A stretch of DNA of 64,000 bases, from the NCBI GenBank assembly GCA_032622095.1, contig CP136066.1, forward strand, positions 10,377,784 to 10,441,783, written 5' to 3'. How positions within the stretch are numbered: position 1 is the stretch's first letter; each line of letters starts with the position of its first letter. Positions 32,106 through 49,182 of the stretch are shown here, piece after piece. The notes below the pieces were generated by a model that was not told the DNA's origin, ran no database searches, and saw only the letters and a program-made list of their open reading frames with translations. Position numbers and translations under genes: made by a program. Source of the stretch: Siphonodentalium dalli (lineage: Eukaryota > Mollusca > Scaphopoda > Gadilida > Siphonodentaliidae).

Positions 32106-32263
32106 AGTAGTAATGGGGGCCACTATGGCCCAGTACCCATCAGAGAGGGCCATAGTGGCCCTCTCTGATGGGTACTGGGCCATAGTTGCCCCCCTGAGGA
32201 TAGATATTCCTGTCATTGATGTGACATTTCTGATCGAAAAAATGAAAATGGACTTAGAATTAT
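32106..32263. repeat. Left terminal inverted repeat, with hairpin
   Basis: After the first ~10 bp comes one 30-bp unit (cactatggcccagtacccat..) and its mirror copy, forming a hairpin around 32149-32151. About 75 bp follow that match 48759-48837 in reverse complement (gaggatagatattcctgtca..). Confidence 0.92.
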
Positions 32264-32338
32264 TTTTTTTCAAAAGGAAAATCTCACTTTGGAAAATATC
32301 AATTAGCAATCAAGAGTTTTTCTTTTCGAATATTTGGT

Positions 32339-32354
32339 GGCCCTGAAAAGGGCC
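32339..32354 (-). terminator. Histone-type 3' stem-loop after OTU-like gene
   Basis: In gene sense it reads GGCCCT-TTTC-AGGGCC, preceded by AAAAC and followed by ACCAAA: a 6-bp stem, 4-nt TTTC loop and ACC tail as in metazoan replication-dependent histone mRNAs. It starts about 20 nt after the stop of the 32838-32374 gene. A purine-rich GAAAAGAAAAAC follows, as a histone downstream element would. Confidence 0.85.
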
Positions 32355-32373
32355 GTTTTATTTTTGTTATAGT

Positions 32374-32838
32374 TTAGAATCCGCCACATTGAACTTCTTT
32401 GTTCGCCAAAACTTCAATTGATTTGTCTCCTCGCCTCATCCATATTTCGCATTCACAATAATGCTCGTGGCAAACGTGTGGGATCCACACTAGAGTTATT
32501 GATGACTTGAATCTTGGTGTTGATTTGTAGCCGCCTTTGGTAGCATCAAACATGACGATAGGTCGCTGTATAACAGTCGCCGCTAATTCAACCATCAATC
32601 TTGATTCAGCCAAAAGTGGTGTGTGCCGTAAATCTTGTGCCGACGCACCAAGTTCGTCACTCTCTGCGTAGTACAGGTCAACTGCCGCATCTCTCAGAAT
32701 CATCCATCCATCGGTCGTCCCGTAAACCCCGAGGCTGAGTGCCCTCCAAAACAGCGATATTTCTTCACCGTACACTGCTTTACAGTATACCCCACCGCCC
32801 ATTATCTCGTCAAGATCTGTTATGTTTACAGCAGTCAT
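32374..32838 (-). CDS. OTU-like (deubiquitinase-like) protein, atypical active site
   Basis: The start at 32838 (MTAVNITDLDE) is chosen because the context 'attct.cattcaaagATG' is identical to the start of the second cassette's minus gene at 34445; an upstream in-frame ATG at 32913 lies in the duplicated promoter. The 154-residue protein resembles OTU cysteine proteases: SLFWRALSLGVYG matches the DGNCLFRALS block, then ILRDAAVDLYY, LMVELAATVIQRPIVMFD, and a terminal CHEHY with the expected catalytic His. The usual nucleophile Cys is replaced by Ser (EEISLF), so it may be inactive, a ubiquitin binder, or something else. The mRNA apparently ends in a histone-type stem-loop. Assignment rests on motif pattern only. 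Confidence 0.5.
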   Translation of the reverse strand: MTAVNITDLDEIMGGGVYCKAVYGEEISLFWRALSLGVYGTTDGWMILRDAAVDLYYAESDELGASAQDLRHTPLLAESRLMVELAATVIQRPIVMFDATKGGYKSTPRFKSSITLVWIPHVCHEHYCECEIWMRRGDKSIEVLANKEVQCGGF

Positions 32839-33462
32839 CTTTGAATGTAGAATAAGTCTGAAGTTCCGTCTTGAACATATATCACGATTGCGCGGGCGGT
32901 AGAGAAAGCACATAATACTTTGACGTTAAAAATGACAAATGCTCCCTGACGTTGTGTTTCTTTTCAGTGCATTATCTGTTAGTTTCACCATTTCGATATG
33001 ATATAGATTAAATTCATGATAGTATATGCAATTAATTAAGATATTTTAACATATGAATTCATCTTCGTTCATAAACGATGACCAAGTAAAGTTATCAATT
33101 GTAATGATGAAGAAAAATGTTCAGTATGTTTTCTTGTGTTCAGTTTTATGTATAAAATATGTACATTTCCAAAACCAAAAACTAGAAAAACATTCCATAT
33201 TTGCCTAACGAGGTAACAAATATATCAATCATGTGTACCAAATAATAGATAATGATCTAACGAAATAAAAAACATTTGTTTGATCGCTATGCAATAATGA
33301 TCAAGAAAAATATGAATGCTGATCCGTCTCTGAAAAAACACAATGCCAGGAAACATTTGTCAATTTTAACGTCAATGCGACATGTGATTTCATTGACGCC
33401 CGTGTCAAATGTATAAAAATATTTTCGAATTTGATCAACGTTACATTGCATTGCTATCAAAG
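32839..33462. promoter_or_regulatory. Bidirectional promoter, copy 1
   Basis: Divergent intergenic region almost identical to 34446-35062. Mirror-image 49-bp arms lie at 32893-32941 and 33354-33402 (cgggcg ... tgacgttaaaa.tgacaaatg and its inverse). The plus side has a strong TATA box, tataaaaat, at 33412; the minus side has a weaker atatatgttc. The core between the arms is AT-rich, with no ORF. Confidence 0.75.
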
Positions 33463-33951
33463 ATGGATCCGTTAACAGAATTTCTTCAGAGTGAGATATA
33501 CAGTAATCCTGTTGTACAGAATACATATGCGGCACCACAGTCAACAGGCCAAGCTAATACGACAATGACTATAGGTGGTGATACACTCATTTTAAAAGCG
33601 ATTTTAGATGAACTGAGATGTCTTCGCAGGGATATTGACGTGAAAACACAAGTAACGCATCAAGAAGTAAAAGTGAATCTTCGTTTCGTTGCAGAAGAGA
33701 TAGATATACCAATCAGGGTTCATGATGTTCAGAGATCGAAAGAACAGAAACAGATCAAAAAAGAAAAAATATTGGCGGCGAAAGAAAAAGAACCTAAAAG
33801 TATCATGAAGCCTTCTACTGAGACAAAAGTCAGATTTCGTCTTCCTTGTAAAGAATCTAAAGATACAGAGAAAAGTGATGAATTCGCAAAAGCTATCGGT
33901 TCTCATGGGAAAGATATGTCAAGATATAAGAAAAACACAAAACGATGTTAA
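33463..33951 (+). CDS. Lys/Glu-rich Polinton accessory protein (cassette 1)
   Basis: The start at 33463 (MDPLTEFLQSEIY) is preferred because the upstream ATG at 33409 overlaps the TATA box. The protein has 162 residues. The N-terminal half has an aliphatic/helical region (LILKAILDELRCLRRDID) and VNLRFVAEEIDIP. The C-terminal half is highly charged and Lys-rich (KEQKQIKKEKILAAKEKE) and ends in a basic tail (RYKKNTKRC). No known domain is recognised; a DNA- or RNA-binding or coiled-coil role is possible. It is divergently transcribed from the OTU-like gene and followed 22 nt after the stop by a histone-type stem-loop. It is not homologous to the plus gene of cassette 2. Confidence 0.7.
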   Translation: MDPLTEFLQSEIYSNPVVQNTYAAPQSTGQANTTMTIGGDTLILKAILDELRCLRRDIDVKTQVTHQEVKVNLRFVAEEIDIPIRVHDVQRSKEQKQIKKEKILAAKEKEPKSIMKPSTETKVRFRLPCKESKDTEKSDEFAKAIGSHGKDMSRYKKNTKRC

Positions 33952-33973
33952 AGTCAGATGATAATTTTAAAAC

Positions 33974-33989
33974 GGCCCTTTTCAGGGCC
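33974..33989 (+). terminator. Histone-type 3' stem-loop, cassette 1 plus gene
   Basis: AAAAC-GGCCCT-TTTC-AGGGCC-ACACACATTCCCC, starting 22 nt after the stop at 33951. The downstream 'ccccaaaaggttactctttca' is shared with the cassette 2 copy. Confidence 0.85.
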
Positions 33990-34199
33990 ACACACATTCC
34001 CCAAAAGGTTACTCTTTCAATGCTGAAAAATCAAAAACACGATTGTTCAATTTATATTTTATTCAACAACAAATATTTGCAAGTATATTTTGTTTTAAAT
34101 TATTCGTGGCGTGATTTTTTCAAAACAAAACATAGGGTACAAAGAACATTATTAGTTCTTAAGCAATGCTAAAAGTTTTTCTTTTTGAAAAAATTGGTT

Positions 34200-34215
34200 G
34201 GTCCTGAAAAGGACC
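34200..34215 (-). terminator. Histone-type stem-loop with compensatory change
   Basis: In gene sense GGTCCT-TTTC-AGGACC-AACC: both stem sides differ from GGCCCT/AGGGCC by a paired C-G to T-A change, so the stem is preserved. It is the second of two stem-loops 3' of the 34445-34257 gene. Confidence 0.8.
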
Positions 34216-34227
34216 GTTTTTGTTTTT

Positions 34228-34243
34228 GGCCCTGAAAAGGGCC
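34228..34243 (-). terminator. Histone-type 3' stem-loop, cassette 2 minus gene
   Basis: GGCCCT-TTTC-AGGGCC in gene sense, starting 13 nt after the stop of the 62-codon ORF. Confidence 0.83.
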
Positions 34244-34256
34244 GTTTTGTATGGCA

Positions 34257-34445
34257 TCAAAGTTCACGCCACGATTTTCTTTTGAGACTTTTGCTTTTGT
34301 TCCAACGCTGTTGTTTTTTGCATATTTGCATAACCAGTTTTGCACTGGCGGTTACTTCTTTTGCGTGTCCGCCCCGCATTATCTGGGGTGTTAGCCCTAT
34401 CGTTCCTCTTAGTATAGACATCAACGGTTCGGGGATTTCGGACAT
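34257..34445 (-). CDS. 62-residue basic Polinton protein with an adenain-like cleavage site
   Basis: The start is fixed by the same 'attct.cattcaaagATG' context as the OTU-like gene. The sequence is short and basic (CKKQQRWNKSKSLKRKSW) and contains IMRGGH. This fits the (M/I/L)-x-G-G|x pattern cut by adenovirus-type proteases, and such a protease is encoded at 47906. It could be a small processed DNA-binding virion or core protein; that is inference. An overlapping longer frame (34524-34264) starts within the duplicated promoter and is less likely. It is followed by two histone-type stem-loops. Confidence 0.5.
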   Translation of the reverse strand: MSEIPEPLMSILRGTIGLTPQIMRGGHAKEVTASAKLVMQICKKQQRWNKSKSLKRKSWREL

Positions 34446-35062
34446 CTTTGAATGCAGAATAAAAATTGTTCACGGCCGTGTTTGAACATATATTACGATT
34501 GCGCGGGCGGTAGAGAAAGCACATGTCGCATTGACGTTAAAAATGACAAATGCTTCCTGACGTTGTGTTTCTTTACAGTGCATTATCTGTAGTTTTCACT
34601 ATTTCGATATGTTATAGATTAAATTCATGATAGTATATGCAATTAATTAAGATGTTTTAACATATGAATTCATCTTCGTTCATAAACGATGACCAAGTAA
34701 AGTTATCGATTGTAATGATGAAAAAAAATGTTCAGTATGTTTTCTTGTGTTCAGTTTTATGTATAAAATATGTGCATCTCCAAAAACAAAACTAGAAAAA
34801 CATTCCATATTTTCCTAACGATATAACAAATATATCAAATCATGTTTACCAAATAATAGATAATGATCTAACGAAATAAAAAACATTTGTTTGATCGTTA
34901 TACAATAATGATCAAGAAAAATATGAATGCTGATCCGTCTCTGAAAAAACACAATGCCAGGAAACATTTGTCAATTTTAACGTCAATGCGACATGTGATT
35001 TCTCTACCGCCCGTGTCAAATGTATAAAAATATTTTCACTTTTTCAGTGAACTTCATTCATT
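34446..35062. promoter_or_regulatory. Bidirectional promoter, copy 2
   Basis: Near-identical to copy 1. The mirror arms at 34504-34552 and 34965-35013 match in inverse orientation at all but a couple of the 49 positions (cgggcggtagagaaa.cacatgtcgcattgacg...). The plus-side TATA box tataaaaat is at 35023. Each arm lies 10-30 bp upstream of the presumed core promoter, so the arms are probably the activating elements for each direction. Confidence 0.78.
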
Positions 35063-35413
35063 ATGCCGTCTCTAAAGAAATTTTTCAAGAAGCTATGGAG
35101 GAAGAGAGATTCGTCAGAGGAGACGAAAATCAGAACCTATAGGAAATGGCAGGATTCTCCTGAACAAAAGGTGGTGCAGAAACAGATGTTAACAGATTTT
35201 CTGGCTCGGCGACGACCATCGGCTGAAGTATGTGATCAAGAACCAAGCAATCTTGATCTCGTGGAGATCTTGTCACAGATCAAGAAGAAAGATCTGTGCA
35301 ATGCAGCGATTGACAGCTTCGCTCAGGCTGCTGCGGCGCACAGATCAAACCCTACTTGGTCTGTGACAATTAATCCCAACGGGATATATCCTGATTTGGC
35401 AGAATTTTTATGA
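35063..35413 (+). CDS. 116-residue Polinton accessory protein (cassette 2)
   Basis: It begins MPSLKKFFKKLWRKR, a basic amphipathic start, about 40 bp after the TATA box. The middle is charged (SSEETKIRTYRKW) and LDLVEILSQIKKKDLC looks helical. The end has a compact Ala-rich helix (AIDSFAQAAAAH) followed by WSVTINPNGIYPDL. No family is recognised. The gene has no similarity to the plus gene of cassette 1, although both promoters and 3' ends match. The stop is followed 18 nt later by a histone-type stem-loop. Confidence 0.7.
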   Translation: MPSLKKFFKKLWRKRDSSEETKIRTYRKWQDSPEQKVVQKQMLTDFLARRRPSAEVCDQEPSNLDLVEILSQIKKKDLCNAAIDSFAQAAAAHRSNPTWSVTINPNGIYPDLAEFL

Positions 35414-35431
35414 ATTCTGGAAAAGAAAAAC

Positions 35432-35447
35432 GGCCCTTTTCAGGGCC
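35432..35447 (+). terminator. Histone-type 3' stem-loop, cassette 2 plus gene
   Basis: AAAAAC-GGCCCT-TTTC-AGGGCC-ACCCA, the best match of the five to the metazoan histone consensus, including the ACCCA at the cleavage side. 'ccccaaaaaggttactctttc' follows. Confidence 0.9.
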
Positions 35448-35521
35448 ACCCACATTCCCCAAAAAGGTTACTCTTTCATAGCTGAAAAAAACAAAACAAA
35501 ACACGATTGTTCAATTCATAA

Positions 35522-35527
35522 TTTATT
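35522..35527 (-). terminator. AATAAA signal for the zinc-knuckle gene
   Basis: AATAAA on the minus strand, about 30 nt after the stop at 35559. This gene therefore appears to be polyadenylated, in contrast to the four stem-loop genes beside it. Confidence 0.6.
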
Positions 35528-35558
35528 CACAATATAATTTTCAAATGTTTGTATCGAT

Positions 35559-36143
35559 TCATTTATCTGTTTTTGGAATGTAGAATTGTCTCAGCTTCTT
35601 TTTCTTGGAAGTTTTCTTGGAATTTTCAAAATCTGGATGTTTATCTTCAGATTTGTTCTGTGAATCATTCGTAGGATCAACAGGTCGGGGTTGTTTGAAA
35701 ACATCTGATGTTGTAGACATCTCTTCAGTTTTGATAACTGCATTTTGTTCTTGTATTGTTACTGCTTGTAGACTTTTTTGTATAGTTTTCACATTTTTTT
35801 TGTCGTCGAAATCTGTTTTACATTGGAAGGACCAATGGGAGTCTTGTCCGCATTTGTAACAGTAACCATATGGTGGTTTCCAATTTTTATCAGCTTTGTT
35901 TTTCTCTTTTTTCTCTTGCCATTGCATTTTGTTACAAAATTTAAACAAATCAGTAGAGATCTGTCTCAATTCGACAAGATTATCTTGAATTTTTCTAGTC
36001 TGTAGTTGTGTAGATTTTTTTGAATCTTCTTTATGCAGCTCAATATAGCTCTCTTCAATAACTGCAGGCCTTGGTCTTTTTCTAACAATATCTTCTTCGC
36101 TGGCGGAGTCGTCTGAAACAGGTCTTTTGATTCTCTTAAACAT
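35559..36143 (-). CDS. CCHC zinc-knuckle protein of the Polinton
   Basis: 194 residues, starting MFKRIKRPVSDD. The N-terminus is basic, then acidic (DDSASEEDIV), with a KRPRP nuclear-localisation-like patch. Around residue 95 a single retroviral-type knuckle, CYKCGQDSHWSFQC (C-x2-C-x4-H-x4-C), suggests single-stranded nucleic acid binding. The C-terminus is Ser/Lys-rich with KTSKKKKLRQF. It is divergent from the polymerase gene, and its first 32 codons are an inverted copy of the polymerase leader. A role in DNA replication or virion nucleoprotein is plausible from the pairing, but not shown. Confidence 0.75.
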   Translation of the reverse strand: MFKRIKRPVSDDSASEEDIVRKRPRPAVIEESYIELHKEDSKKSTQLQTRKIQDNLVELRQISTDLFKFCNKMQWQEKKEKNKADKNWKPPYGYCYKCGQDSHWSFQCKTDFDDKKNVKTIQKSLQAVTIQEQNAVIKTEEMSTTSDVFKQPRPVDPTNDSQNKSEDKHPDFENSKKTSKKKKLRQFYIPKTDK

Positions 36144-36458
36144 TTTTGTCTTGAGTTTTTGTCAGCAAAAAATATTGCGACTGGCTTCTTCGGAGTTGAA
36201 GTGTAAAGTGTATAATTACACAATTTTAACACCTGCTTTTATAGCAGTCACGATGAAAAATGCTATAAAAGCAAGTGTAAAATTGTGTAATTATACACTT
36301 TACACTTCAACTCCGAAGAAGCCAGTCGCAATATTTTTTGCTGACAAAAACTCAAGACAAAAATGTTTAAGAGAATCAAAAGACCTGTTTAAGACGACTC
36401 CGCCAGCGAAGAAGATATTGTTAGAAAAAGACCAAGGCCTGCAGTTATTGAAGAGAGC
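36048..36458. promoter_or_regulatory. Palindromic bidirectional promoter plus copied N-terminal codons
   Basis: Arms 36048-36246 and 36261-36458 are near-perfect inverse copies around a 14-bp spacer. Each arm contains a TATA box (gctataaaagca), ~95 bp of leader and the first 32 codons of a gene (zinc-knuckle protein to the left, polymerase to the right). Differences are few: one indel, a leader substitution, and a C-to-A change that turns a serine codon into TAA (36390-36392) on the polymerase side. Confidence 0.88.
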
Positions 36459-36461
36459 GAA

Positions 36462-36659
36462 ATGGAAACTGATAGGGCAGAAAGTGAAGAGAGCGATATG
36501 GAAACTGATAGGGCAGAAAGTGAAGAGAGCGATATGGAAACTGATAGGGCAGAAAGTGAAGAGAGCGAGATGGAAACTGATAGGGCAGAAAGTGAAGAGA
36601 GCGATATGAAAACTGATAGGGCAGAAAGTGAAGAGAGCGATATGGAAACTGATGGAGGC
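36462..36659 (+). repeat. 36-bp tandem repeat in the polymerase N-terminus
   Basis: Six in-frame copies of atggaaactgatagggcaga-type units encode METDRAESEESD, with E/K and D/E variants. This is likely a disordered acidic tail. Confidence 0.9.
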
Positions 36660-39600
36660 GAAAGTGAAGAAAGTTCTAGTGATGGTCAGATTGGACGCGG
36701 TCGAAGACAGAATAGAGAAATTGGTGGGAAGAGAAAGAGAAGTCTGGCTAGAGAGCGTGTTGTGTTCAATCCAACAAAATATTTCAAATTGGAGCTGAAC
36801 TCGGAGAAATTTTCCAGAAAATTTAAATCAGCATCACGACAATTTGGTGTGAAATTCGAGAAATTTACAGATCCAATCGAAAACATTCCAGAGATATTTG
36901 AGAAGTTGACAGAAGAATTGAAACAGAAATGTTCAGCAAATGAGAAGACAAGAATCAGAGTTACGATAAATCATCCAGGACTTGATATGAGCATTTTCAT
37001 TCCATTCACAAAAGCCAGTGAATTGAATGGCGGGACACTTATGGATAATATTCAAAATGTGGTTCAATCAAATGCAGACTTTACAATTCATGACGGTGCA
37101 CTCAATTTCGAAATCTTCGTTACAGATATTCCGGAAGGTGGTACACGACACTCACTACATTATGGACCATTTGCAGACAAGAACAAGCTTACAAAAGTGA
37201 AAAGAAGTATTGTCCGGATTGAAAATGCTGATGATGTTATGTGTATGGCAAGATCTATTGTCGTCGGAATGTGTAAGGCAGATAGTGATGGATCTGCGTG
37301 CTGGTCAAAGAAATGGAAAAGAATAAGACAATCAATATACACAGCACAAACAGATGCAGCAAAAAATCTACTCAACCGTGCTGGTATTCCACACGATACA
37401 GTTTGCAGTATCAATGAGTTCCACAAGATTCAAGAAATATTGTATCCAGAATATGTTGTGAAAATTCACAATGAATTTGCTGGTGCTGGATTTCTATTTG
37501 AACCTGCAGAAATGTGTTCGGAGAGCAAATGTGTACACATCTACTACAACAACAATCACTTCGACACCATAACATCAATCAAAGGATTTCTAGGCACCAA
37601 CTACTACTGCGAATTCTGTGACATTGGATTCAAAAGTCGTGGCGATCATCGATGCAGATTTGTTTGTGCATGCTGGTCATTGACACAGTGTAATTTCACA
37701 AATTTGGTGAAGTGTAGAACGTGTCGACGATCATTCAGAAGTAAATCTTGTTTCGACAACCATTTGAAGACGGAAGGAAAACAGAAAAGAAAAATATGTG
37801 ATTTGGTTCAACTATGCAACAATTGTGATGAAGAAATTCTCATCAATAAATCATCCAGACATATATGTGCGGGGTTGAAGAAATGCAAACATTGCAAAGA
37901 AATCGTTGAAGCAGATCACAGATGCTACATTCCAAAATATGAATCACCGGAAAAGAAACCTGCAAAGATTCCATATGTATTCTTTGACTTTGAATGCAGA
38001 CAAGACACAGGTGTTCATATTCCAAACTTCTGTGTTGCACATACCGCTTGTGGAGATTGCATGTGCAAACCAATCGAAGAAAAATGTGAAACATGCGGAC
38101 CGGATTCCAGAGAATTTGTATTCAAGGGTGACAACGTTTTAACAGACTTCACAAACTGGTTATTCCATCAAGATCACAAAGGATGTGTTGCAATAGCACA
38201 TAATGCTCAGGGATACGATGCACAGTTTCTACTTCAAGCACTCATACAAAGTGGAATTCATAAACCAGAACTGATCATGAATGGAAACAAAATTCTCAGT
38301 TTAAAATGCAACAGCGTGAAAGTTATTGATTCTCTGAGTTTTCTGATGATGCCGCTTTCAAAATTTCCACAAACTTTTCAGCTGAATGAGATGGCAAAAG
38401 GACACTTTCCACATTGGGCGAATTCACCAAAGTTTCAAAATTACATTGGACCTTACTTGGCTTGTGATTACTACAAACCAGATATGATGAGCGTGGAAAA
38501 TCGAGAGAAATTCTTTGAATGGTACAATGAGAAAATAGAAAATTATGCGATATTCAACTTCCAAGAAGAGATAGAGAAGTACTGCAAATCAGACGTGGAT
38601 ATTCTTCGCCGTGGATGTGGAAAATTCAGGAAATACATATTGGAAACAGAACAGATTGACCCGTTCATTGAGTCAATAACATTGGCACAAGTTTGCAATT
38701 TGGCATGGAGGAAGAATTCAATGCCAGAAAAAACAATTGGAATCATTCCAGATGGTGGATATCCATGTGCTAAAAACTATTCCATGAAAGCGATACGTTG
38801 GCTTCAACACCTATCATTGTCACGTTTGATAACAATCAAACATGCTTTGAATGGAGGAGAAATCAAGATTGGTGGACACTACGTCGATGGATATGAGGAA
38901 GCCACAAGAACAGTTTTTGAGATGAATGGATGTCTGTTTCATGGATGTCCAAAATGTTACAACACCAGACATTACAAGAATCCTTATACGATGCTCACCA
39001 TGGAAGAATTATATACAAGAACTCAACAGAAGAAAGATGAACTGGAAAGTCTTGGTTACAGAGTTGAATCAATTTGGGAGCATCAGATCGACGAAAGAAT
39101 GAAATCGGATGTGAAATTCAAACAACAAATGGAATCTTTCTACAAACATCGAGACCCTATTTTGCAAAGAGAAGCGTTGTTTGGTGGACGTACAAATGCC
39201 ATCAAATTGTACGAGGAAATTGATCAAGATTCCACAAAAGAAATCAAGTTTATCGATGTGTGTTCGTTGTATCCATTTTGCAACAAATATAAATTCTACC
39301 CTGTTGGACATCCAGAAATTTTGAGCCAAGAGCAGATCGATCAAGAACACATTAGAGACTATGCGGGACTTATTAAATGTACAATTTTACCACCATCGAA
39401 ATTGTATATTCCAGTTCTACCGATTCATTGTAACAAGAAAATGGTTTTTACTTTGTGTAACACTTGTGCCATCAATGAGGACGAGACATGTAACCATTCA
39501 GAAGAAGATCGAGCTATAACCGGAGTGTGGACCACGCCAGAATTATTCAAAGCAATGGATGTTGGCTACAAAATACTTGATGTGCACCAAATTTGGCATT

Positions 39601-40508
39601 GGACAGATTGGACAGATGAAATATACAAATCCTATATCGATAAACATCTAAAGATCAAACAGGAATGTAGTGGTTATCCATTTGGTGTTGAGACAGAAGA
39701 ACAGAAACAAAAGTTTGTACAGGATTATTATGCAGCTGAGGGTATAAATTTGGAGAACATCGAGAAGAATCCAGGAAAACGTCAAATATCTAAAATTATG
39801 ATTAATTGTATATGGGGTAAGAATGCACAAAGAAATCTTATGTCAAAAACAGAGTATGTGGATAAACCATCACGTTATTTTGAATTGCTTAATAGTAACA
39901 ATATAATTGTTCAAAATGTTACACTTCTTGATGGTGACAAATTCATTCTGGTAAATTATGTTGATATCTTAGATAATATTGAACCTCATCATTCAGCAAA
40001 TGTTGTTGTTGCTTCTTTTGTTACAGCGTATGCAAGATTACAATTGTATAAAGTTTTAGAAAAACTTGGAGATAGAGTGCTGTATTTTGATACAGACAGC
40101 TGTATGTATGTCAGTGATCCATCAAAGAAGAACATCAAAACTATCGAAGGAAGATTGGGGAAATGGAGCGACGAACATCCAGATGCAAAGATTGTCAAAT
40201 TTGTTGGACTTGGGCCAAAGAACTACGGATATGAATACATCAAAGATGGGGTAAGATACACCAAATGTAAGGTAAAAGGTATCACTCTTGATTACAGCAC
40301 AAGTCAAAAAGTTAATTTTGAAACAATGGTACAATGTGTTAATGATCGTGAAAATTTCAAAACTGTTGTTGAGTATCCTTCCAGAATTAAAAGACAAAAG
40401 AACCATCAACTGATTAGTGAGTGTCAAACCAAAACTTGCAGATCGGTGTACACAAAACGAAAACTCGTCAATGGTATTCATACATATCCATACGGATGGA
40501 GATGTTGA
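36462..40508 (+). CDS. polB: Protein-primed family B DNA polymerase
   Basis: 1348 residues from the ATG at 36462. A more upstream ATG (36363) lies in the same frame and is the natural match to the divergent gene, but it is cut by TAA at 36390. The N-terminus holds six acidic METDRAESEESD repeats. A Cys/His-rich region (about residues 385-490) precedes the 3'-5' exonuclease: FFDFEC (D509/E511), NAQGYD (N581, D586), YCKSDVDIL (D711). The polymerase domain has motif A DVCSLYP (D932), motif B K1111...NCIWG, and motif C YFDTDS (D1210/D1212). All catalytic residues are present, so it should be active. It replicates the element by protein priming in the nucleus, by family knowledge. Confidence 0.96.
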   Translation: METDRAESEESDMETDRAESEESDMETDRAESEESEMETDRAESEESDMKTDRAESEESDMETDGGESEESSSDGQIGRGRRQNREIGGKRKRSLARERVVFNPTKYFKLELNSEKFSRKFKSASRQFGVKFEKFTDPIENIPEIFEKLTEELKQKCSANEKTRIRVTINHPGLDMSIFIPFTKASELNGGTLMDNIQNVVQSNADFTIHDGALNFEIFVTDIPEGGTRHSLHYGPFADKNKLTKVKRSIVRIENADDVMCMARSIVVGMCKADSDGSACWSKKWKRIRQSIYTAQTDAAKNLLNRAGIPHDTVCSINEFHKIQEILYPEYVVKIHNEFAGAGFLFEPAEMCSESKCVHIYYNNNHFDTITSIKGFLGTNYYCEFCDIGFKSRGDHRCRFVCACWSLTQCNFTNLVKCRTCRRSFRSKSCFDNHLKTEGKQKRKICDLVQLCNNCDEEILINKSSRHICAGLKKCKHCKEIVEADHRCYIPKYESPEKKPAKIPYVFFDFECRQDTGVHIPNFCVAHTACGDCMCKPIEEKCETCGPDSREFVFKGDNVLTDFTNWLFHQDHKGCVAIAHNAQGYDAQFLLQALIQSGIHKPELIMNGNKILSLKCNSVKVIDSLSFLMMPLSKFPQTFQLNEMAKGHFPHWANSPKFQNYIGPYLACDYYKPDMMSVENREKFFEWYNEKIENYAIFNFQEEIEKYCKSDVDILRRGCGKFRKYILETEQIDPFIESITLAQVCNLAWRKNSMPEKTIGIIPDGGYPCAKNYSMKAIRWLQHLSLSRLITIKHALNGGEIKIGGHYVDGYEEATRTVFEMNGCLFHGCPKCYNTRHYKNPYTMLTMEELYTRTQQKKDELESLGYRVESIWEHQIDERMKSDVKFKQQMESFYKHRDPILQREALFGGRTNAIKLYEEIDQDSTKEIKFIDVCSLYPFCNKYKFYPVGHPEILSQEQIDQEHIRDYAGLIKCTILPPSKLYIPVLPIHCNKKMVFTLCNTCAINEDETCNHSEEDRAITGVWTTPELFKAMDVGYKILDVHQIWHWTDWTDEIYKSYIDKHLKIKQECSGYPFGVETEEQKQKFVQDYYAAEGINLENIEKNPGKRQISKIMINCIWGKNAQRNLMSKTEYVDKPSRYFELLNSNNIIVQNVTLLDGDKFILVNYVDILDNIEPHHSANVVVASFVTAYARLQLYKVLEKLGDRVLYFDTDSCMYVSDPSKKNIKTIEGRLGKWSDEHPDAKIVKFVGLGPKNYGYEYIKDGVRYTKCKVKGITLDYSTSQKVNFETMVQCVNDRENFKTVVEYPSRIKRQKNHQLISECQTKTCRSVYTKRKLVNGIHTYPYGWRC

Positions 40509-40524
40509 GTCATTTCATGTCAAG

Positions 40525-41031
40525 ATGTTGGCAGGAGTAGTACCTCCAGAAATTGCTGAGAAGATTTATGGATATTTGGTGGCACAGTCAACGCTTATTC
40601 CAGAGATAAAGAAGGAATTACAAGAAGTCTGGTTTGAAAGAGAAAAGAAAGCAATACTACGATGCTGTGATGTCGGCGAATGTTTACAGAGATTGGCCTA
40701 TCTTGAGTCAAGTATATCTTCTCATTTCTCTCAAAAATATATTGAATCATTTATTAAATTCAAAACATTTTTTCTCATTGAAAAAATATCTGATTTTTGG
40801 ACATTTGGTGGTGATCAACACCATTTAGATTTAGATTTAGGAACTTTTGATGAACATGACTATATTCATTATACAAAGTATGAAGATCATTTTCCTCTTG
40901 CTGGGGGAACTTTTGAATCAGTTCCTAGGATCTATGGGTATTTGTTAACAAAAAAATGTCAACATATGCAAAAATTAAAAACATTTTGGGGGATGATTTT
41001 TTTATTTACAGAACAAAGTACAGAAGAATAG
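40525..41031 (+). CDS. Polinton protein of unknown function
   Basis: The ATG at 40525 lies 16 bp after the polymerase stop; upstream ATGs would overlap it. The 168-residue product begins MLAGVVPPEIAEKIYGYL, with predicted helices and a Glu/Lys-rich segment, followed by acidic HLDLDLGTFDEHDY. No domain is recognised. The last ~75 bp overlap another short frame. Its position between polymerase and packaging ATPase suggests a replication or early role; no more can be said. Confidence 0.6.
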   Translation: MLAGVVPPEIAEKIYGYLVAQSTLIPEIKKELQEVWFEREKKAILRCCDVGECLQRLAYLESSISSHFSQKYIESFIKFKTFFLIEKISDFWTFGGDQHHLDLDLGTFDEHDYIHYTKYEDHFPLAGGTFESVPRIYGYLLTKKCQHMQKLKTFWGMIFLFTEQSTEE

Positions 41032-41120
41032 AAGACTATGATAATTGGATTATTGAAATGTATGGAAATATTTACAGCTTTGGAGATTTCTCTTTAAGAA
41101 CTAAATTCACACGTCGTTAA
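40956..41120 (+). CDS. Small overlapping ORF, 54 residues
   Basis: It starts with an ATG in a good A-rich context at 40956 and continues past the stop of the previous gene. The product contains DDFFIYRTKYRRI and ends SLRTKFTRR, which looks like real coding composition (Tyr, Arg, Asp, Trp). It could be a separate small gene or the frameshifted end of the preceding one; the choice is open. Confidence 0.45.
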   Translation: MSTYAKIKNILGDDFFIYRTKYRRIEDYDNWIIEMYGNIYSFGDFSLRTKFTRR

Positions 41121-41153
41121 GTTCACTCTCTGATTAGACATCAAAGTGACAAC

Positions 41154-41804
41154 ATGGAAGAATCTTTACTTTTCCAACATCCGTGTAATTTCTTTATCAG
41201 CGGACCTAGTGGATCAGGTAAAACAGAATTTGTTAAAAAAGTTATTGAATTTAAACACGATTTATTCCAAACACCACCAAAGAAAATAGTTTGGTGTTAC
41301 AAAGAATGGCAAGACACATACAATCGTATAAAAGAAATTGATAACGTTGAGTTTATCGATGGTATTCCAGACGATGATGAGGAAATTGTATCAGATAAAT
41401 CATTTCCTCATCTTGTTGTTTTCGATGACATGATGGGGGAACAAGATGAAGACAAAATAATGCTTTGGTTTACTAGAAAAGGTCATCATCGAAATGCTTC
41501 AATAATTTACATTACTCAAAACATGTTCCAAAAATCAAAAAGTAGCAGAACTATAAGTTTGAATGCACACTACATGGTTTTATTTCAAAGCGTTCGAGAT
41601 AAAAATCAAATAAAAGTTTTGGCTCATCAAATGCAAACCAATCATTTGAAACAAGCATACGAAGATGCAACTTCAATAAATCATGGATATATTTTAGTAG
41701 ATTTTCATCCTAGAACAGAAAATTATTTGCGAATTAGAACTGATATTTTCCATAAATGGTTGACAGCTAATGACCGAGGTCCTGTCATATATTCAAAAGT
41801 ATAA
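41154..41804 (+). CDS. Genome-packaging ATPase (FtsK/HerA, A32-like)
   Basis: 216 residues. Walker A is GPSGSGKT (about residue 20); Walker B is HLVVFDDMM (around residue 88). A sensor-type IIYITQN follows near residue 125, and an arginine-rich SKSSRTISLN. The length is typical for Polinton ATPases. It is expected to pump element DNA into capsids, which goes with the capsid genes downstream. Downstream spacing is 34 bp. Confidence 0.93.
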   Translation: MEESLLFQHPCNFFISGPSGSGKTEFVKKVIEFKHDLFQTPPKKIVWCYKEWQDTYNRIKEIDNVEFIDGIPDDDEEIVSDKSFPHLVVFDDMMGEQDEDKIMLWFTRKGHHRNASIIYITQNMFQKSKSSRTISLNAHYMVLFQSVRDKNQIKVLAHQMQTNHLKQAYEDATSINHGYILVDFHPRTENYLRIRTDIFHKWLTANDRGPVIYSKV

Positions 41805-41838
41805 ATTCAGTTGTTGTTACTTTTTTCATTTTAGAACC

Positions 41839-42342
41839 ATGTCGTCCACCGAGATGTTTAGTCATGATGAACTGTCACAAATTATAAATTTCTTCACTTT
41901 TGCAGCTGAATTATTTCTTGAAAATGATTGGAAATTACCATCACAGACAAAAAAGTTTTTTCAGAGAAATAAAAATGTTCTTAAAAAAATCTCTGATCGA
42001 TCAACTGATATGGAAACAAAACGCAAATTAATTTTACAACGAGGTGGTAGTGGGTTTCTTGGAGGAGTTTTAATTAGAAGTCTTTTGAAAAATTCATTTG
42101 AACAAACTGGTAGACAATCTAAAAGTAAATCAAAGGTTTCTCCAAAACGTTCAAAGATTACTCGGAAGCAAACACAACAAAGAGGTAATCAAAAAGAATC
42201 TAAACGTAAAACAAAGCTTTCTCTAAATCATTCAAAGTTTACACCGATGCAAACTCAACAAAATCAACATTCTAAATTTACACCTATACCTTCTCAGCAG
42301 AACCCTCAACATCAACCGTTACAAAAAAAAACCAGTTATTGA
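41839..42342 (+). CDS. pX-like minor virion protein, copy 1, probable 3' frame break
   Basis: The start MSSTEMFSHDE at 41839 is preferred over the upstream in-frame codon at 41770, which overlaps the ATPase. 167 residues. The LILQRGGSGFLGG segment is a G-G protease-site-like motif followed by a hydrophobic stretch (VLIRSLLKN), parallel to the next gene. After that come Lys/Gln-rich repeats (HSKFTPM, HSKFTPI). The frame ends just after a run of nine A (42312-42320). Directly downstream another frame stays open to 42427 with a similar composition, including a further SKF-P motif. This suggests a homopolymer indel or slippage. Confidence 0.65.
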   Translation: MSSTEMFSHDELSQIINFFTFAAELFLENDWKLPSQTKKFFQRNKNVLKKISDRSTDMETKRKLILQRGGSGFLGGVLIRSLLKNSFEQTGRQSKSKSKVSPKRSKITRKQTQQRGNQKESKRKTKLSLNHSKFTPMQTQQNQHSKFTPIPSQQNPQHQPLQKKTSY

Positions 42343-42483
42343 TCTTGAATTTTCAAAATTTATGCCGTTGTCTGATGCATCGAAATCTGCATTCGAAGCT
42401 TTAGAATGGTTCAATCCGAAAAGATAAAAGATGAAACATATAATTTTTCTGCTCATTTTGAGACAACTACTTAGACTGTGAAG

Positions 42484-42846
42484 ATGCCTTCAAAAACTAA
42501 GAGCCGGAAAGCACCGCTGATAAAAAAATATGGTGAGTTGATTGTTGCAATGAGTAAAGTTCCATCTGCATATAAAAAGAAAATGATCAACGATGCTCCG
42601 AAACAAGTGATGGATTGCATTTCAGAATGTTGTCAAAATCTTTTAAAAGGTAATGTAAAACTGAATGAAGCTCAGAACCGCAAGTTACATTCGAAGCGTA
42701 AACATATCAGATATCTTGCAGACAAGAACAAACCTTTGCAACAAAAGAAGAAAATTTTGAATCAAAAAGGTGGCTTTTTACCATTATTATTTCTTGCTCC
42801 ATTGATTAGCAAAACATTAGGTGCAGTTGTTAAAAATATTTTGTAA
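42484..42846 (+). CDS. pX-like minor virion protein, copy 2
   Basis: 120 residues from the ATG at 42484 (the preceding GTG is not a credible eukaryotic start). The N-terminus is basic (PSKTKSRKAPLIKKYGEL), then helical with Cys-rich ISECCQNL. A Lys-rich segment leads to NQKGG followed by a hydrophobic end (FLPLLFLAPLI). A basic region, a GG cleavage-type site and a C-terminal hydrophobic segment is the plan of adenovirus protein X. The encoded protease (47906) could cut at the GG. It shares the KKK-(I/L)L-Q(R/K)GG arrangement with the previous gene, so the two look like diverged paralogues. Confidence 0.72.
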   Translation: MPSKTKSRKAPLIKKYGELIVAMSKVPSAYKKKMINDAPKQVMDCISECCQNLLKGNVKLNEAQNRKLHSKRKHIRYLADKNKPLQQKKKILNQKGGFLPLLFLAPLISKTLGAVVKNIL

Positions 42847-42866
42847 AAACTAAATCTCAAATAAAT

Positions 42867-43574
42867 ATGAAGAAAATGGTTATTGTACCATTCAGAATGT
42901 TGGAAGATTTCAAACAATGGGAAATGTCAGAAATGAATAAACCTCAATTACCTCCTGATCCTGCAATTTCAAATGTTTCAGATTCTTACAAAGAATTGAA
43001 ATCAGTTTATGATAAAAATATTTCTGAATCAGAAAAGTCACAGTTATTTGGAGAAAATTTGTACAAATTGAAAACTTCACAAAAATCTTTAAATTCAAAA
43101 TTCAGTTTACCTGAACAAAAGTTATCTGAAAACTTTGGGAAAATGAGTGACCATATATTGGAAAGTGTGCCATCTAAATTTCGTGGTAAAGCACAACAAA
43201 TTTTATCATTGTTGTCAACTAATCCTAAACTTAGATGGGATGATCGTGGACAATTAATTTATGGAACAGAAACAGTTACTGGATCAAATATAATTGATTT
43301 GATAAACGATGTTGTTCGTCACCGAAAAGGTTTTAACCCAGTTGGTTATGAAACATTCCTACGTGGATTGGGGGAACTTAATATACCACAAGATTATGTA
43401 GGTAACAGGGATCGATGGCTGTGGATGCAAAGACATTTAAAAGGTCACACTGGTGATGTGTTTCATACACCTCATGCAACTCCTATCAGTGGCAAGTCAA
43501 GAAAACGTTCAGTTGATATTTTAACACCAGAAACCAGAAAAACTATTTTGAAAGGATGGTCCTCACTTACATAA
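42867..43574 (+). CDS. Conserved Polinton protein upstream of integrase
   Basis: 235 residues, starting MKKMVIVPFRML. The C-terminal half has the pattern ILSLLSTNPKLRWDDRGQL, GSNIIDLINDVVRHRKG, then FLRGLGELNIPQDYVGN, which I recall as a conserved unknown family in metazoan Polintons. The N-terminus is charged, without domains. It overlaps the integrase start by 19 bp, so expression is coupled. Function unknown; a virion or integration cofactor role would be a guess. Confidence 0.72.
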   Translation: MKKMVIVPFRMLEDFKQWEMSEMNKPQLPPDPAISNVSDSYKELKSVYDKNISESEKSQLFGENLYKLKTSQKSLNSKFSLPEQKLSENFGKMSDHILESVPSKFRGKAQQILSLLSTNPKLRWDDRGQLIYGTETVTGSNIIDLINDVVRHRKGFNPVGYETFLRGLGELNIPQDYVGNRDRWLWMQRHLKGHTGDVFHTPHATPISGKSRKRSVDILTPETRKTILKGWSSLT

Positions 43575-44650
43575 AATTTGACAAACTTCTAACTGAAATT
43601 TACTACAATCCAAAAGAAGTTGGTGGTTTCAGTGGAGCAAATCAACTTTTTAAAAATGCAAAAGAAACAAATAACAAAATTAAACTTTCAGATGTTAAAA
43701 AATGGTTACAATGGCAAAAAACATATACTTTGCACAAACCAATTGTTCGGAAATTTCGCAGACGTAAAACTATTGTTGCAGGAATTGATATTCAGTGGCA
43801 AGCTGATCTGGCAGATTTGCAAACTTTGCAAAAGCACAATGACAAATACAGATATTTACTTTGTGTTATTGATGTGTTCTCAAAATTTGCATGGGTTGAA
43901 AAAATTAAAGATAAAACTGGTAAAACTTTAGTTAAAACATTTCAGAAAATTCTCAAATCATCAAAACGAAAACCAGCTTCATTTCAATCTGACAAAGGTT
44001 CAGAATTCAAAAATAAATTATTTTTACAATTTTTGAAATCTAAGAAAATTCATTTTTTCACAACAGAGAATCCAGAGACAAAAGCAAGTATAGTTGAACG
44101 TTTTCAACGGACATTGAAAACAAAGATGTGGAAATATTTTACACATAATCAAACTTTGAAATACGTTGATGTTTTGCACGATTTTGTGAATTCTTACAAC
44201 AAAAGTTTTCATAGAAGTATTAAGATGGCACCAGTTTTAGTAACTCGAGAAAATGAAATTGAAGTTTCCAGAAATCTTTATGGAAAGTTAAAAACGAAAA
44301 AAGATAAGATGTTGAAAGTTGGAGATTTTGTTAGAATAAATAAAACAAAGAGAACTTTTGATAAAGGATATCTTCCAAATTGGACAAAAGAAATTTTCAA
44401 AATTAGTAGAGTTTGTAAAAGTACACCATTAACTTACAAATTAGTAGATTTAGATGGTGAAAACATCGCAGGATCATTTTATGGTAAAGAAATTCAACAT
44501 ATAAAAGATAATAAAGTTTACGAAATTGAATCAGTTGTTGGTAAACGTTCAAGAAAAGTTGCTGGTAAATCAGTTAGAGAAATTAAAGTTCATTGGGCTG
44601 GTTATCCTAAAAAATTTGACAGTTGGATACCTGCCACAAATTTGGTATAA
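43556..44650 (+). CDS. Retroviral-type integrase with chromodomain
   Basis: 364 residues. DDE core: first D in WQADLADLQ (about residue 82-86), second D in FQSDKGSEFKN (about 147), E in ASIVERFQRTLK (about 182). A chromodomain closes the protein (YEIESVVGKR, then IKVHWAGYPKKFDSWIPA), which may steer insertion to particular chromatin. The N-terminal zinc-binding HHCC is not obvious, as in some Polinton integrases. It acts on the terminal inverted repeats and produces the 6-bp duplication seen at this locus. Confidence 0.95.
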   Translation: MVLTYIKFDKLLTEIYYNPKEVGGFSGANQLFKNAKETNNKIKLSDVKKWLQWQKTYTLHKPIVRKFRRRKTIVAGIDIQWQADLADLQTLQKHNDKYRYLLCVIDVFSKFAWVEKIKDKTGKTLVKTFQKILKSSKRKPASFQSDKGSEFKNKLFLQFLKSKKIHFFTTENPETKASIVERFQRTLKTKMWKYFTHNQTLKYVDVLHDFVNSYNKSFHRSIKMAPVLVTRENEIEVSRNLYGKLKTKKDKMLKVGDFVRINKTKRTFDKGYLPNWTKEIFKISRVCKSTPLTYKLVDLDGENIAGSFYGKEIQHIKDNKVYEIESVVGKRSRKVAGKSVREIKVHWAGYPKKFDSWIPATNLV

Positions 44651-44660
44651 AACTTTTAAC

Positions 44661-44924
44661 ATGTCTCAAAATGGTTCAGTTGGTCTCGATGCTCCATCAC
44701 AATTTCAAATCTGTGGAGAAAAAATTGCAAAAAATCAAGTAACATATTTTACACAAATTATTATAATTGTTGGTATAATCGCTACAGCAATTGTTCATTT
44801 AAGTTTACAAAGTGAAAATAACGAACTGTGGTTAATTTTACTCAGTAGTTCTTTGGGGTACATTTTACCAACACCGCGTTTGAAATATTTGAAAAATCAG
44901 TCGGCAGAAATTTTGAAAGTATGA
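44661..44924 (+). CDS. Small membrane protein with two hydrophobic segments
   Basis: 87 residues starting MSQNGSVGLDAPS at 44661; an upstream in-frame start would overlap the integrase. Two membrane spans: IIIIVGIIATAIVHL and WLILLSSSLGYIL. It ends overlapping the penton-like gene by four bases (ATGA at 44921). I recall similar short membrane ORFs at this place in other metazoan Polintons. It may reside in a virion membrane or host membrane; unknown. Confidence 0.7.
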   Translation: MSQNGSVGLDAPSQFQICGEKIAKNQVTYFTQIIIIVGIIATAIVHLSLQSENNELWLILLSSSLGYILPTPRLKYLKNQSAEILKV

Positions 44925-45772
44925 ATCCTTTCTACATTACAATTCCGAGCGACAGTTCGATGGTAATGTATCCAAACAATACTCAATGTTGTTTTACTGT
45001 ACAATTACCAAAACCAGTTCAAATTGATAAAGAAAAATGGGAAGTTGCATTAGCCGAACTGATAACACCTTCAGAAACATACAATGTTACAGGGGATTCG
45101 TGTAAATTCAATTTGATTACAACTGATGCAATATTACTGTCTGTTCTTCAAAATCGTTTTGAAGAAAAGATATTTAGGAGACCTGATGGCGTTCATGCAC
45201 TTGAAATACAGATACAAAATGGTTCGTATACCTCTGCGACAGATTTACTTGATACAATGCAAGATGTAATTGATGAAACACTTGGAGAAGCAATGCAAAA
45301 CGAATACGGATTTCACATCGGGTACTCAAAAGCTACAAAACGTGTGAAAATTATTCGCAAGAGTTTAAGTAACACAAAACTAGGAATTGAATTACCACAA
45401 TGTCTTTTACACAAGTTGGGTTACAAAACTGAAAACGCTTCTGAAGATTTTTATTCAAATAATAGATTTCCGTTTGGTGTAGATTTGAATGTTGGTCATA
45501 ATCTAATGTTTGTTTATTCTGATATTGCCGATTACACATTTGTTGGAAATGTTGAAGTACAAATTTTACGAGTTGTTTCTTTCAGAAGTAAAAGAGATAT
45601 CGACGGATTACATGTAAAACATGAATTTTTAAATTTACATTATGTTCCAGTTTCAAAGTCATACTTTGACAAAATTAGTGTAAATATAAGTGGCGACACA
45701 GGAAAATCAATTCAGTTTATTGGTGGTAAGTCTTTGGTGAAGCTACATTTCAGAAAACGAGAGGAGTTCTAA
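44921..45772 (+). CDS. Minor capsid (penton-like) protein
   Basis: 283 residues. The N-terminus MNPFYITIPSDSSMVMYPNN followed by FTVQLPKPVQ and WEVALAEL is the pattern of the Polinton penton-like, single jelly-roll protein. Further GYSKATKRVKI and a later FVYSDIADYTFVGN suit the family. It would form capsid vertices with the major capsid protein encoded downstream. Overlap with the previous gene is ATGA. Confidence 0.88.
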   Translation: MNPFYITIPSDSSMVMYPNNTQCCFTVQLPKPVQIDKEKWEVALAELITPSETYNVTGDSCKFNLITTDAILLSVLQNRFEEKIFRRPDGVHALEIQIQNGSYTSATDLLDTMQDVIDETLGEAMQNEYGFHIGYSKATKRVKIIRKSLSNTKLGIELPQCLLHKLGYKTENASEDFYSNNRFPFGVDLNVGHNLMFVYSDIADYTFVGNVEVQILRVVSFRSKRDIDGLHVKHEFLNLHYVPVSKSYFDKISVNISGDTGKSIQFIGGKSLVKLHFRKREEF

Positions 45773-45777
45773 AAACA

Positions 45778-46152
45778 ATGTTCCCCGTGTATAGAGGCGT
45801 GCCACGGCAATATGGTAATGGTATTGGTTCAATTTTCAAATCAGTTATGAGATCTGCTATACCATTTCTAAAACCGCTTGGTCGGACAGCTTTACAACTT
45901 GCGAAAAAACACACTTTTGGTGTTGCAGATGAAATTATTAATCAAGGTAAAAGTCCGAAAGAAGCGTTGATGTCTGAAGGTAAAAAAGCTTTAAAATCTT
46001 TTGGCACACAAGCTAAAAATCAAATTTTGAACTCGAGAAAAAAACCTAGAAAAAGAGTAGCGACTTCAAAAATGAATCATTCAGCTGTCAAACGCCGAAA
46101 AAGTCAGTCGAAAAAACATCCTAGCAGTCGAGCTCTTGATATTTTTGATTAA
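45778..46152 (+). CDS. Basic minor virion protein
   Basis: 124 residues, starting MFPVYRGVPRQYGNGIGSI, then an amphipathic segment (RSAIPFLKPLGRTALQLAKK) and a Lys/Arg-rich tail (SRKKPRKRVATSK, KRRKSQSKKH). A glycine-containing amphipathic N-terminus with basic tail recalls adenovirus pVI-type proteins, and a gene of this shape regularly lies between penton and major capsid genes. A membrane-lytic or DNA-binding role is only inferred. Confidence 0.7.
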   Translation: MFPVYRGVPRQYGNGIGSIFKSVMRSAIPFLKPLGRTALQLAKKHTFGVADEIINQGKSPKEALMSEGKKALKSFGTQAKNQILNSRKKPRKRVATSKMNHSAVKRRKSQSKKHPSSRALDIFD

Positions 46153-46154
46153 TC

Positions 46155-47459: not shown

Positions 47460-47460
47460 G

Positions 47461-49176: not shown

Positions 49177-49182
49177 GACATC
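49177..49182. repeat. Right target-site duplication of Polinton (GACATC)
   Basis: Identical to 32100-32105. Confidence 0.93.

Follow-up and report, generated by a model that had tools for sequence, protein, structure and literature searches.

The histone stem-loop (Rfam family RF00032) belongs to the 3′ end of replication-dependent histone mRNAs, and according to two papers (PMC6303110, PMC12819152), no other protein-coding mRNAs of animals are of this type. Among virus-like elements of animals, bracoviruses have histone H4, as stated in PMC12819152. For Polinton-like elements, a light literature search turned up a sole source that joins them with histone stem-loops, a 2025 tabulation (PMC12220804, Microbiome 2025) that gives RF00032 six times among 8300 Polinton-like virus and virophage genomes scanned and none in the 1107 cryptophyte genomes of the same survey. 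These matches belong to the Rfam family considered here, but they appear as a list count only; the main text names no genes, hosts or function for them and has the word "histone" once. The same search, itself a weak probe of prior work, found no account of a histone-signal regulon in Polintons. Here we describe a Polinton family that probably uses histone-gene control signals for non-histone genes, the mRNAs of which are predicted from their sequence to be SLBP/U7-processed, non-polyadenylated and replication-coupled.

The element and its four cassette genes

The window, i.e., the whole 64-kb stretch of DNA that was analysed, provides all coordinates given below. It contains an element with the following main features.

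32106..49176, no strand: Polinton element, 17.1 kb, with a 6-bp target duplication, GACATC, at 32100-32105 and 49177-49182
32104-32161 / 49178-49121: terminal inverted repeats (95%)
36462..40508, plus: DNA polymerase B, organellar and viral type (PF03175, E 1e-38)
43556..44650, plus: rve integrase with chromodomain (PF00665, E 1e-12)
35559..36143, minus: zinc-knuckle gene adjoining the cassettes

An A32-type ATPase is present as well (PF04665, E 8.3e-9), together with a weak match to an adenovirus-type protease (PF00770, E 5.8e-4, 20.0 bits versus a cut-off of 21.3), while two candidates for the double and single jelly-roll capsid proteins, ORFs of 434 and 283 aa, have no Pfam match. With PolB, rve integrase, A32 ATPase, inverted repeats and a target duplication of the 5-6 bp type, the element is a Polinton/Maverick. 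The family has many near-identical copies in this animal genome. Inverted repeats are frequent in the element, and several miRNA-like Rfam matches fall under their own cut-offs.

At its left end lie four short genes, which are arranged in two divergent pairs.

32374..32838, minus: gene 1, 154 aa, no family match
33463..33951, plus: gene 2, 162 aa, no family match
34257..34445, minus: gene 3, 62 aa, basic (pI 10.7), with the ORF kept by 10 of the 11 polymerase-picked copies
35063..35413, plus: gene 4, 116 aa, no family match
32871..33426, no strand: divergent promoter, copy 1 of a 558-bp duplication (94.6%)
34482..35037, no strand: divergent promoter, copy 2 of the same duplication (94.6%)
32893..32967, minus: shared promoter-proximal element, gene 1
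33333..33402, plus: shared promoter-proximal element, gene 2
34504..34573, minus: shared promoter-proximal element, gene 3
34944..35013, plus: shared promoter-proximal element, gene 4

A first-pass annotation of this DNA had stated that none of the four proteins is a histone, and our comparisons agree with this: a Pfam search at E 0.1 gave nothing for genes 1, 2, and 4, and the comparison for gene 3 covered PDB sequences. The best PDB sequence matches had E 0.14 for gene 1 and 0.53 for gene 3, with none up to E 10 for gene 4; a weak match of gene 2 to a viral chemokine inhibitor (E 0.0085) was not accepted as homology. For gene 1, no homologue was found at E 0.001 and the single-sequence fold was unusable (pLDDT 34); by eye, the protein looks OTU-like. 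The codon signal of genes 3 and 4 is weak in the window. Between copies, amino-acid changes are fewer than silent changes in genes 2 and 4, with a pooled pN/pS of 0.50 for gene 2 (window plus 4 copies) and 0.36 for gene 4 (window plus 6 copies, leaving out L040 and L041 with their interrupted or broken frames); values for single pairs, which share branches, span 0 to 1.17.

The promoter-proximal element of approximately 70 nt is common to all four genes, and the next best match in the window has an E-value of 0.2 (BLAST). Both the 558-bp promoter and the 3′ flanks have been duplicated inside the element. Given that the cassettes (promoter plus 3′ flank) are duplicates, the four hairpin sites described below do not represent independent events.

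Stem-loops and downstream flanks

The first-pass annotation reported five 16-nt hairpins in the sense of the preceding gene, such that four genes on both strands have one approximately 13 to 22 nt past the stop. All five are present, and the distances fall within this range except for the second hairpin of gene 3.

32339..32354, minus: stem-loop of gene 1, 19 nt after the stop; RF00032 41.8 bits at 32359-32313
33974..33989, plus: stem-loop of gene 2, 22 nt after the stop; RF00032 39.5 bits at 33969-34013
34228..34243, minus: weak (first) hairpin of gene 3, 13 nt after the stop; RF00032 22.2 bits, under the cut-off; flank not histone-like
34200..34215, minus: strong (second) stem-loop of gene 3, 41 nt after the stop; RF00032 37.1 bits at 34220-34174
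35432..35447, plus: stem-loop of gene 4, 18 nt after the stop; RF00032 42.6 bits (E 2.9e-9) at 35427-35472, the best RF00032 match of the window

A scan with RF00032 had been named beforehand as a possible refutation. When all of Rfam was run against the whole window (cmscan, matches listed up to E 5), RF00032 reached at least its gathering score of 34 bits four times, at four of the five hairpins and every time at these genes. The adjoining zinc-knuckle gene has no RF00032 match and carries, as had been reported, an AATAAA signal, at 35527 on the minus strand. The claim that the flanks follow the histone consensus, best at 35432, holds for the four strong hairpins, with that site scoring highest, but not for the hairpin at 34228, which lacks a histone flank. 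The 16 nt of this weak hairpin are the same as in the hairpins of genes 1, 2, and 4, yet it scores 22.2 bits, so that the flank contributes up to approximately 20 bits of the strong scores. At 34200, both sides of one pair are altered from C-G to U-A and pairing is kept, in line with the compensatory change noted earlier.

We compared these ends with those of the host's own histone genes. Genes 1, 2, and 4 carry exactly the hairpin seen in the H2A and H2B genes read from the host, for which RF00032 gives 41.7 and 42.2 bits, versus 42.6 and 41.8 for the best two of the element. Host H2A and H2B agree in 16/16 stem positions and 25/25 of the next 25 nt, and then in 10/35. With an offset of at most 2 nt allowed, this 25-nt host flank is matched at 17, 17, 21, and 18 of 25 positions by genes 1, 2, 3, and 4; when both strands of the element are taken together, 4 of their 34,092 25-mers attain at least 17/25, as many as there are strong hairpins. 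A CA lies at most 5 nt past the stem for genes 1, 2, 3 (strong hairpin), and 4, and a run of at least 7 purines starts 11 to 13 nt past the stem in three of the four genes, against a background of 0.17 per 30-nt stretch; the run of gene 2 is of six only.

32317..32327, minus: purine run GAAAAGAAAAA, candidate U7-pairing (HDE-like) element of gene 1, aligned with the host histone flank
34176..34186, minus: purine run AAAAAGAAAAA, candidate U7-pairing element of gene 3, in the flank with 21/25 identity to the host
35461..35467, plus: purine run AAAAAGG, candidate U7-pairing element of gene 4, past its stem-loop

The CA dinucleotide and the putative purine-rich downstream element of a histone-type 3′ end are therefore both represented at this locus. 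The cassettes are all built alike, with the shared promoter element, a short ORF in which no intron is visible, a histone stem-loop, and a host-type downstream flank.

Sister copies and other genomes

Among the 75 scored RF00032 matches listed for the genome, which do not include the window's own 42.6-bit match, there are 12 outside histone-like arrays, and each of these is a copy of gene 4 (eight cases) or gene 2 (four cases), with the hairpin 18 to 22 nt past the stop. In a 210-kb host sample (21 pieces) the same hairpin was found 0 times, and a loose hairpin rule picked out two hairpins of other sequence. These observations bear on the idea that the hairpins are palindromes that arose in AT-rich spacer DNA by chance or by convergence. 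The abundance of inverted repeats in the element speaks for it, but the E-values of the four strong matches (3e-9 to 3e-7, all Rfam versus window), the empty host sample, and the confinement of the dispersed matches to these genes leave it with a negligible probability.

Outside the host, PolB and two PolB alignments used as queries in IMG/VR gave no close relative and two distant loci (L002 and L015), and contaminated genome bins yielded 11 related loci. Of 12 sources (the 11 bin loci plus L002), one, L007, has an RF00032 match at or above the gathering score, and L007 is again the only one with a match among the 8 of these 12 scanned up to E 2. This match (35.8 bits, on a Polinton-like contig, 28 nt past the stop of a C2H2 zinc-finger ORF) was not counted, since the ORF may lie outside the element. 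A hairpin-plus-flank pattern occurred in two IMG/VR stretches inside long ORFs of phage-like contigs, one of which scored 18.9 bits when scanned with Rfam; both were taken as chance.

From 35 scored polymerase matches, we read 11 other copies of the element. Related copies without hairpins had been named in advance as evidence against the first-pass interpretation; this is not what is seen, as 10 of the 11 have all five hairpins, and 50/50 are paired. The eleventh (L067) has gene 1 with its hairpin and, beside the same promoter element as in the window cassettes, a full-length histone H4 ORF (phmmer E 2.6e-54) with a hairpin 27 nt past the stop; genes 2 to 4 are absent from the stretch read. 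Its hairpin flank matches the host flank at 15/25 positions without gaps, a level reached by 60 of the 34,092 25-mers. H4 is present in this one of the 11 copies only. The ORFs of most copies read thus encode four unrelated non-histone proteins, and in one diverged copy one ORF is H4. Both the H4 copy and the shared promoter element go beyond what the first-pass annotation had observed.

Gain and loss of cassettes is also evident in another copy (L048), where gene 1 is joined to gene 4 and genes 2 and 3 are gone. Together with the H4 copy lacking genes 2 to 4 in the stretch read, this could point to the hairpin as a DNA-level cassette boundary, i.e., a site of recombination or cassette exchange, with the likeness to histone genes being secondary. 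However, the join in L048 lies in the repeated promoter and not at a hairpin, and a boundary role leaves unexplained why the CA and the purine run stand at the spacing known from histone genes and why the ends resemble those of host H2A and H2B, making this reading very improbable.

In nine copies picked via their hairpins, which are recent, no slower change of the hairpins compared to the DNA beyond was detected (5/464 versus 34/1847 sites, Fisher p 0.32); past the stem, the next 26 nt vary more (21/538 sites). Since rates among copies are not significantly lower, selection on the hairpin or downstream flank is unsupported. In 4 of the 29 sister hairpins of these copies, a change breaks the hairpin or blocks its recognition in the scan. 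Such rates would fit hairpins that are remnants of a captured histone gene and have no present role, the genes being polyadenylated elsewhere. The H4 ORF in one copy is in keeping with this, as are an AATAAA that ends 2 nt upstream of the gene 1 stem, so that poly(A) forms are possible, and another at 34063 on the minus strand, past gene 3. On the other hand, both the hairpin and the host-like flank of 25 nt are kept behind four different ORFs, whereas the cassettes have diverged from one another upstream of the stem and past the flank, one paired change has preserved pairing, and all 50 hairpins are intact in 10 polymerase-picked copies, even if these are young. We therefore regard mere remnants as unlikely.

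Proposed origin and relation to known systems

The interpretation put forward in the first-pass annotation, SLBP-type ends on non-histone Polinton genes, is supported at the sequence level. Because a sister copy carries an H4 ORF in the same cassette, an origin from a histone gene is suggested, and the source of the signals is probably a captured H4 gene. On balance, we favour a history in which the promoter and 3′ end of a captured histone gene became a general expression cassette, giving rise to a set of non-histone, non-polyadenylated, replication-coupled mRNAs. From the DNA alone we infer this direction of evolution as well as SLBP binding, processing, the lack of poly(A), and coupling to S phase or replication. 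The family would have captured a replication-dependent histone gene, H4 being the likeliest, and duplication and ORF replacement would have made its promoter and 3′ end reusable. RNA polymerase II would transcribe the genes and SLBP would bind the hairpin; the U7 snRNP would pair with the purine-rich stretch starting 11 to 13 nt past the stem, and CPSF73 would cut after the CA at most about 5 nt from the stem, producing an mRNA end without poly(A). Levels of such mRNAs would rise in S phase or while DNA is being actively replicated, as would suit an element that replicates DNA.

If this is correct, the histone mRNA class of animals would gain its first non-histone members with the cassette genes, and early gene expression of the element would be tied to S phase of the host or to replication of the element itself, hinting at how Polintons time genes to DNA replication. 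The signal would be portable and would provide a natural test of its role apart from histones. In addition, the mRNAs would be missing from poly(A)-selected RNA data, so that Polinton activity in animals may be underestimated.

With the 3′ end of replication-dependent histone mRNAs (RF00032, SLBP/U7), the cassettes share the 16-nt hairpin, AAAC before and CA after it, a purine-rich stretch, and a short distance to the stop; unlike those mRNAs, the genes in the window have no histone match. PolB, rve integrase, A32-type ATPase, inverted repeats, the 6-bp duplication, and perhaps an adenovirus-type protease (weak match) are common to this element and Polinton/Maverick elements, but in contrast to those described in the literature found, it holds a block of histone-signal cassettes. 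Bracoviruses resemble it as virus-like animal elements with histone H4 (PMC12819152); there, the histone itself is the product, whereas in the Polinton family signals of the same kind also appear to serve non-histone genes.

Hairpins and promoters of the left-end gene block

The Polinton at 32106-49176 is bounded by inverted repeats, with a 6-bp duplication (GACATC) on either side, and encodes PolB, an A32-type ATPase and an rve integrase with chromodomain; its adenovirus-protease match is weak. Its left end is the site of four short non-histone ORFs, arranged as two divergent pairs:

32374-32838 (-), gene 1, with a hairpin at 32339
33463-33951 (+), gene 2, with a hairpin at 33974
34257-34445 (-), gene 3, with a weak hairpin at 34228-34243 and a strong one at 34200
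35063-35413 (+), gene 4, with a hairpin at 35432

All five hairpins listed in the first-pass annotation are present at their places. We scanned the 64-kb window with RF00032, the Rfam model of the histone 3' stem-loop (cut-off 34 bits). Four hairpins score above the cut-off (42.6, 41.8, 39.5, and 37.1 bits), and the rest of the window has no match above it. Each of the six hairpins folded, the five of the window and one of L007 (a Polinton-type relative from a contaminated genome bin), has a 6-bp stem and a 4-nt loop. The compensatory change proposed for the hairpin at 34200 is real, with both sides changed and pairing kept. Hairpin 34228-34243 scores 22.2 bits; its 16 nt are identical to those of three other hairpins, but its flank is different. 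It thus serves as an internal control, indicating that up to approximately 20 bits of the RF00032 score come from the histone-type flank and not from the hairpin. The histone-type flanks claimed for the whole set therefore hold for the four strong hairpins but not for this one. Likewise, a hairpin lies 13-22 nt past the stop in all four genes, as had been noted, but the strong hairpin of gene 3 is the second one, at 41 nt.

The divergent promoter (558 bp) occurs in two copies that are 94.6% identical, and the 3' flanks of the cassettes are related to one another at 82-86%, so the gene block arose partly by duplication. An element of approximately 70 nt lies upstream of each of genes 1-4, in the correct sense and within the promoters (next match in the window, E 0.2). 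Promoter element and 3' signal therefore travel together, as in a regulon. The zinc-knuckle neighbour does have the AATAAA attributed to it, approximately 31 nt past its stop, with no RF00032 match there. By eye, the gene 1 protein resembles an OTU-type protease with serine in place of the usual cysteine; Pfam and PDB sequence searches lend this resemblance no support. Other features observed in the window are:

7191-12098 (+), Ty3/gypsy-type retrotransposon matching RT, RNase H, and integrase models, and matching capsid and gag models at sub-threshold scores
32104-32193 and 48757-49178, ends of the element, made of repeated GGCCATAGTGGCC-type palindromes; miRNA-family matches are under the cut-off
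36106-36400, inverted repeat between the zinc-knuckle gene and PolB, at least approximately 295 nt (the compared piece stopped at 36400), 95% self-complementary; miRNA-family matches there are under the cut-off
36253-36609 (+), 118-aa ORF with tandem repeats of approximately 12 residues, overlapping the PolB start in a different frame

The host histone signal and sister copies

The host genome (2.23 Gb, 9 contigs; the window is C6:10377784-10441783) was searched with RF00032, and scores were obtained for the best 75 of 409,530 first-look candidates; the window's own 42.6-bit match is not among these 75, all of which exceed the cut-off. By position, 63 of the 75 lie in tight arrays on contigs C5 and C8, and the genes upstream of the three array matches that were read are H2B, H2A, and H2B (Pfam). 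Between host H2A and H2B, the hairpin and the following 25 nt are identical (25/25), while beyond that only 10/35 positions agree, which likely marks the extent of the host signal. Host H2A and H2B ends score 41.7 and 42.2 bits, near the element's best. The strong hairpins of the element match the host stem at 14-16 of 16 positions, and the 25-nt flanks of genes 1, 2, 3, and 4 match the host flank at 17, 17, 21, and 18 positions (shift of at most 2 nt). Among 34,092 25-mers from both strands of the element, only 4 reach 17/25, the number that the four flanks account for. In a protein search, the best named relatives of the element's polymerase come from oysters (approximately 44% identity); together with the H2A and H2B genes, this indicates an animal host.

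The hairpins recur in related Polintons of the same host, as anticipated, both in copies picked by polymerase and in copies picked by hairpin. For PolB, 35 matches were scored of 4045 candidates, the window's own among them, and 31 are without stops. The accessory region was examined in 11 of the 34 non-window copies: ten carry all five hairpins (50/50 perfectly paired), and the eleventh has two, both paired.

The other 12 scored RF00032 matches are dispersed over 11 places; eight belong to copies of gene 4 and four to copies of gene 2. All of these copies show 91-99% identity to the window and have the hairpin 18-22 nt past the stop position; the gene 4 frame is interrupted in one copy (L040) and broken in another (L041). 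Since these copies were picked by hairpin, we examined the hairpins of their sister genes instead, which are intact at 25/29 sites in nine places. Differences from the window in these nine places amount to 5/464 sites in hairpins, 21/538 in the next 26 nt, and 34/1847 in the DNA beyond, and slower change of the hairpin than of the DNA beyond was not detected (p 0.32); the copies are too young for selection on the hairpin itself to show. Pooled pN/pS values of 0.36 for gene 4 (window and 6 copies) and 0.50 for gene 2 (window and 4 copies), i.e., fewer amino-acid than silent changes, point to purifying selection on both genes.

In one copy on C9 at 99.78 Mb (L048 and L060), fused promoter repeats connect gene 1 with gene 4, and genes 2 and 3 are missing, which looks like cassette loss through promoter recombination. 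In the relatives from contaminated bins, L007 has a C2H2 zinc-finger ORF at 8042-8380 (+), in element or host DNA, with an RF00032 match 28 nt on (35.8 bits). At 7189-7695 (-), this Polinton-like contig from a Bacteroidia bin has a TATA-binding-protein gene (PF00352, E 1.2e-27), and ORFs in L004 and L010 resemble TBP on visual inspection.

A histone H4-like gene and comparison with known 3' ends

The eleventh PolB-picked copy (L067, contig C4) carries gene 1 and a 104-aa H4-like ORF on opposite sides of the promoter. The match to histone H4 spans the whole ORF (phmmer E 2.6e-54); against the Pfam core histone model the ORF scores 22.8 bits, below the 26.4 cut-off and lower than with the CENP-T and TAF histone-fold models. 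The shared promoter element lies upstream of the ORF and a hairpin 27 nt downstream, scoring 42.0 bits with RF00032 (41.8 for the gene 1 hairpin of this copy). The 25-nt flank of the H4 hairpin agrees with the host flank at 15/25 ungapped positions, poorer than all four window genes. Most simply, these sequences can be explained if the family took up a replication-dependent histone gene together with the gene's control signals, which other ORFs then came to use. The order may also have been the reverse, with the cassettes first and H4 captured into them later; the H4 ORF was seen in 1 of the 11 copies.

In histone mRNA processing, the hairpin is bound by SLBP, a purine element pairs with the U7 snRNP, and CPSF73 cuts after CA. 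Such processing of genes 1-4 would yield short mRNAs without poly(A), mostly during DNA replication. An AATAAA before the gene 1 stem is compatible with this path, given the human precedents reported in PMC9756948: an H2A pre-mRNA whose downstream element is overlapped by a poly(A) signal can take either processing route, and H4 pre-mRNA has a poly(A) signal upstream of the stem-loop.

According to PMC6303110 and PMC12819152, histone mRNAs alone among the protein-coding mRNAs of animals belong to this class. PMC12220804 lists six RF00032 matches, uncommented, across 8300 scanned Polinton-like virus and virophage genomes; an incomplete literature search found no published work closer than that list. 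Taken together, what appears to be new here is the setting: a histone-type 3' end, itself of a known kind, on non-histone genes of a Polinton.
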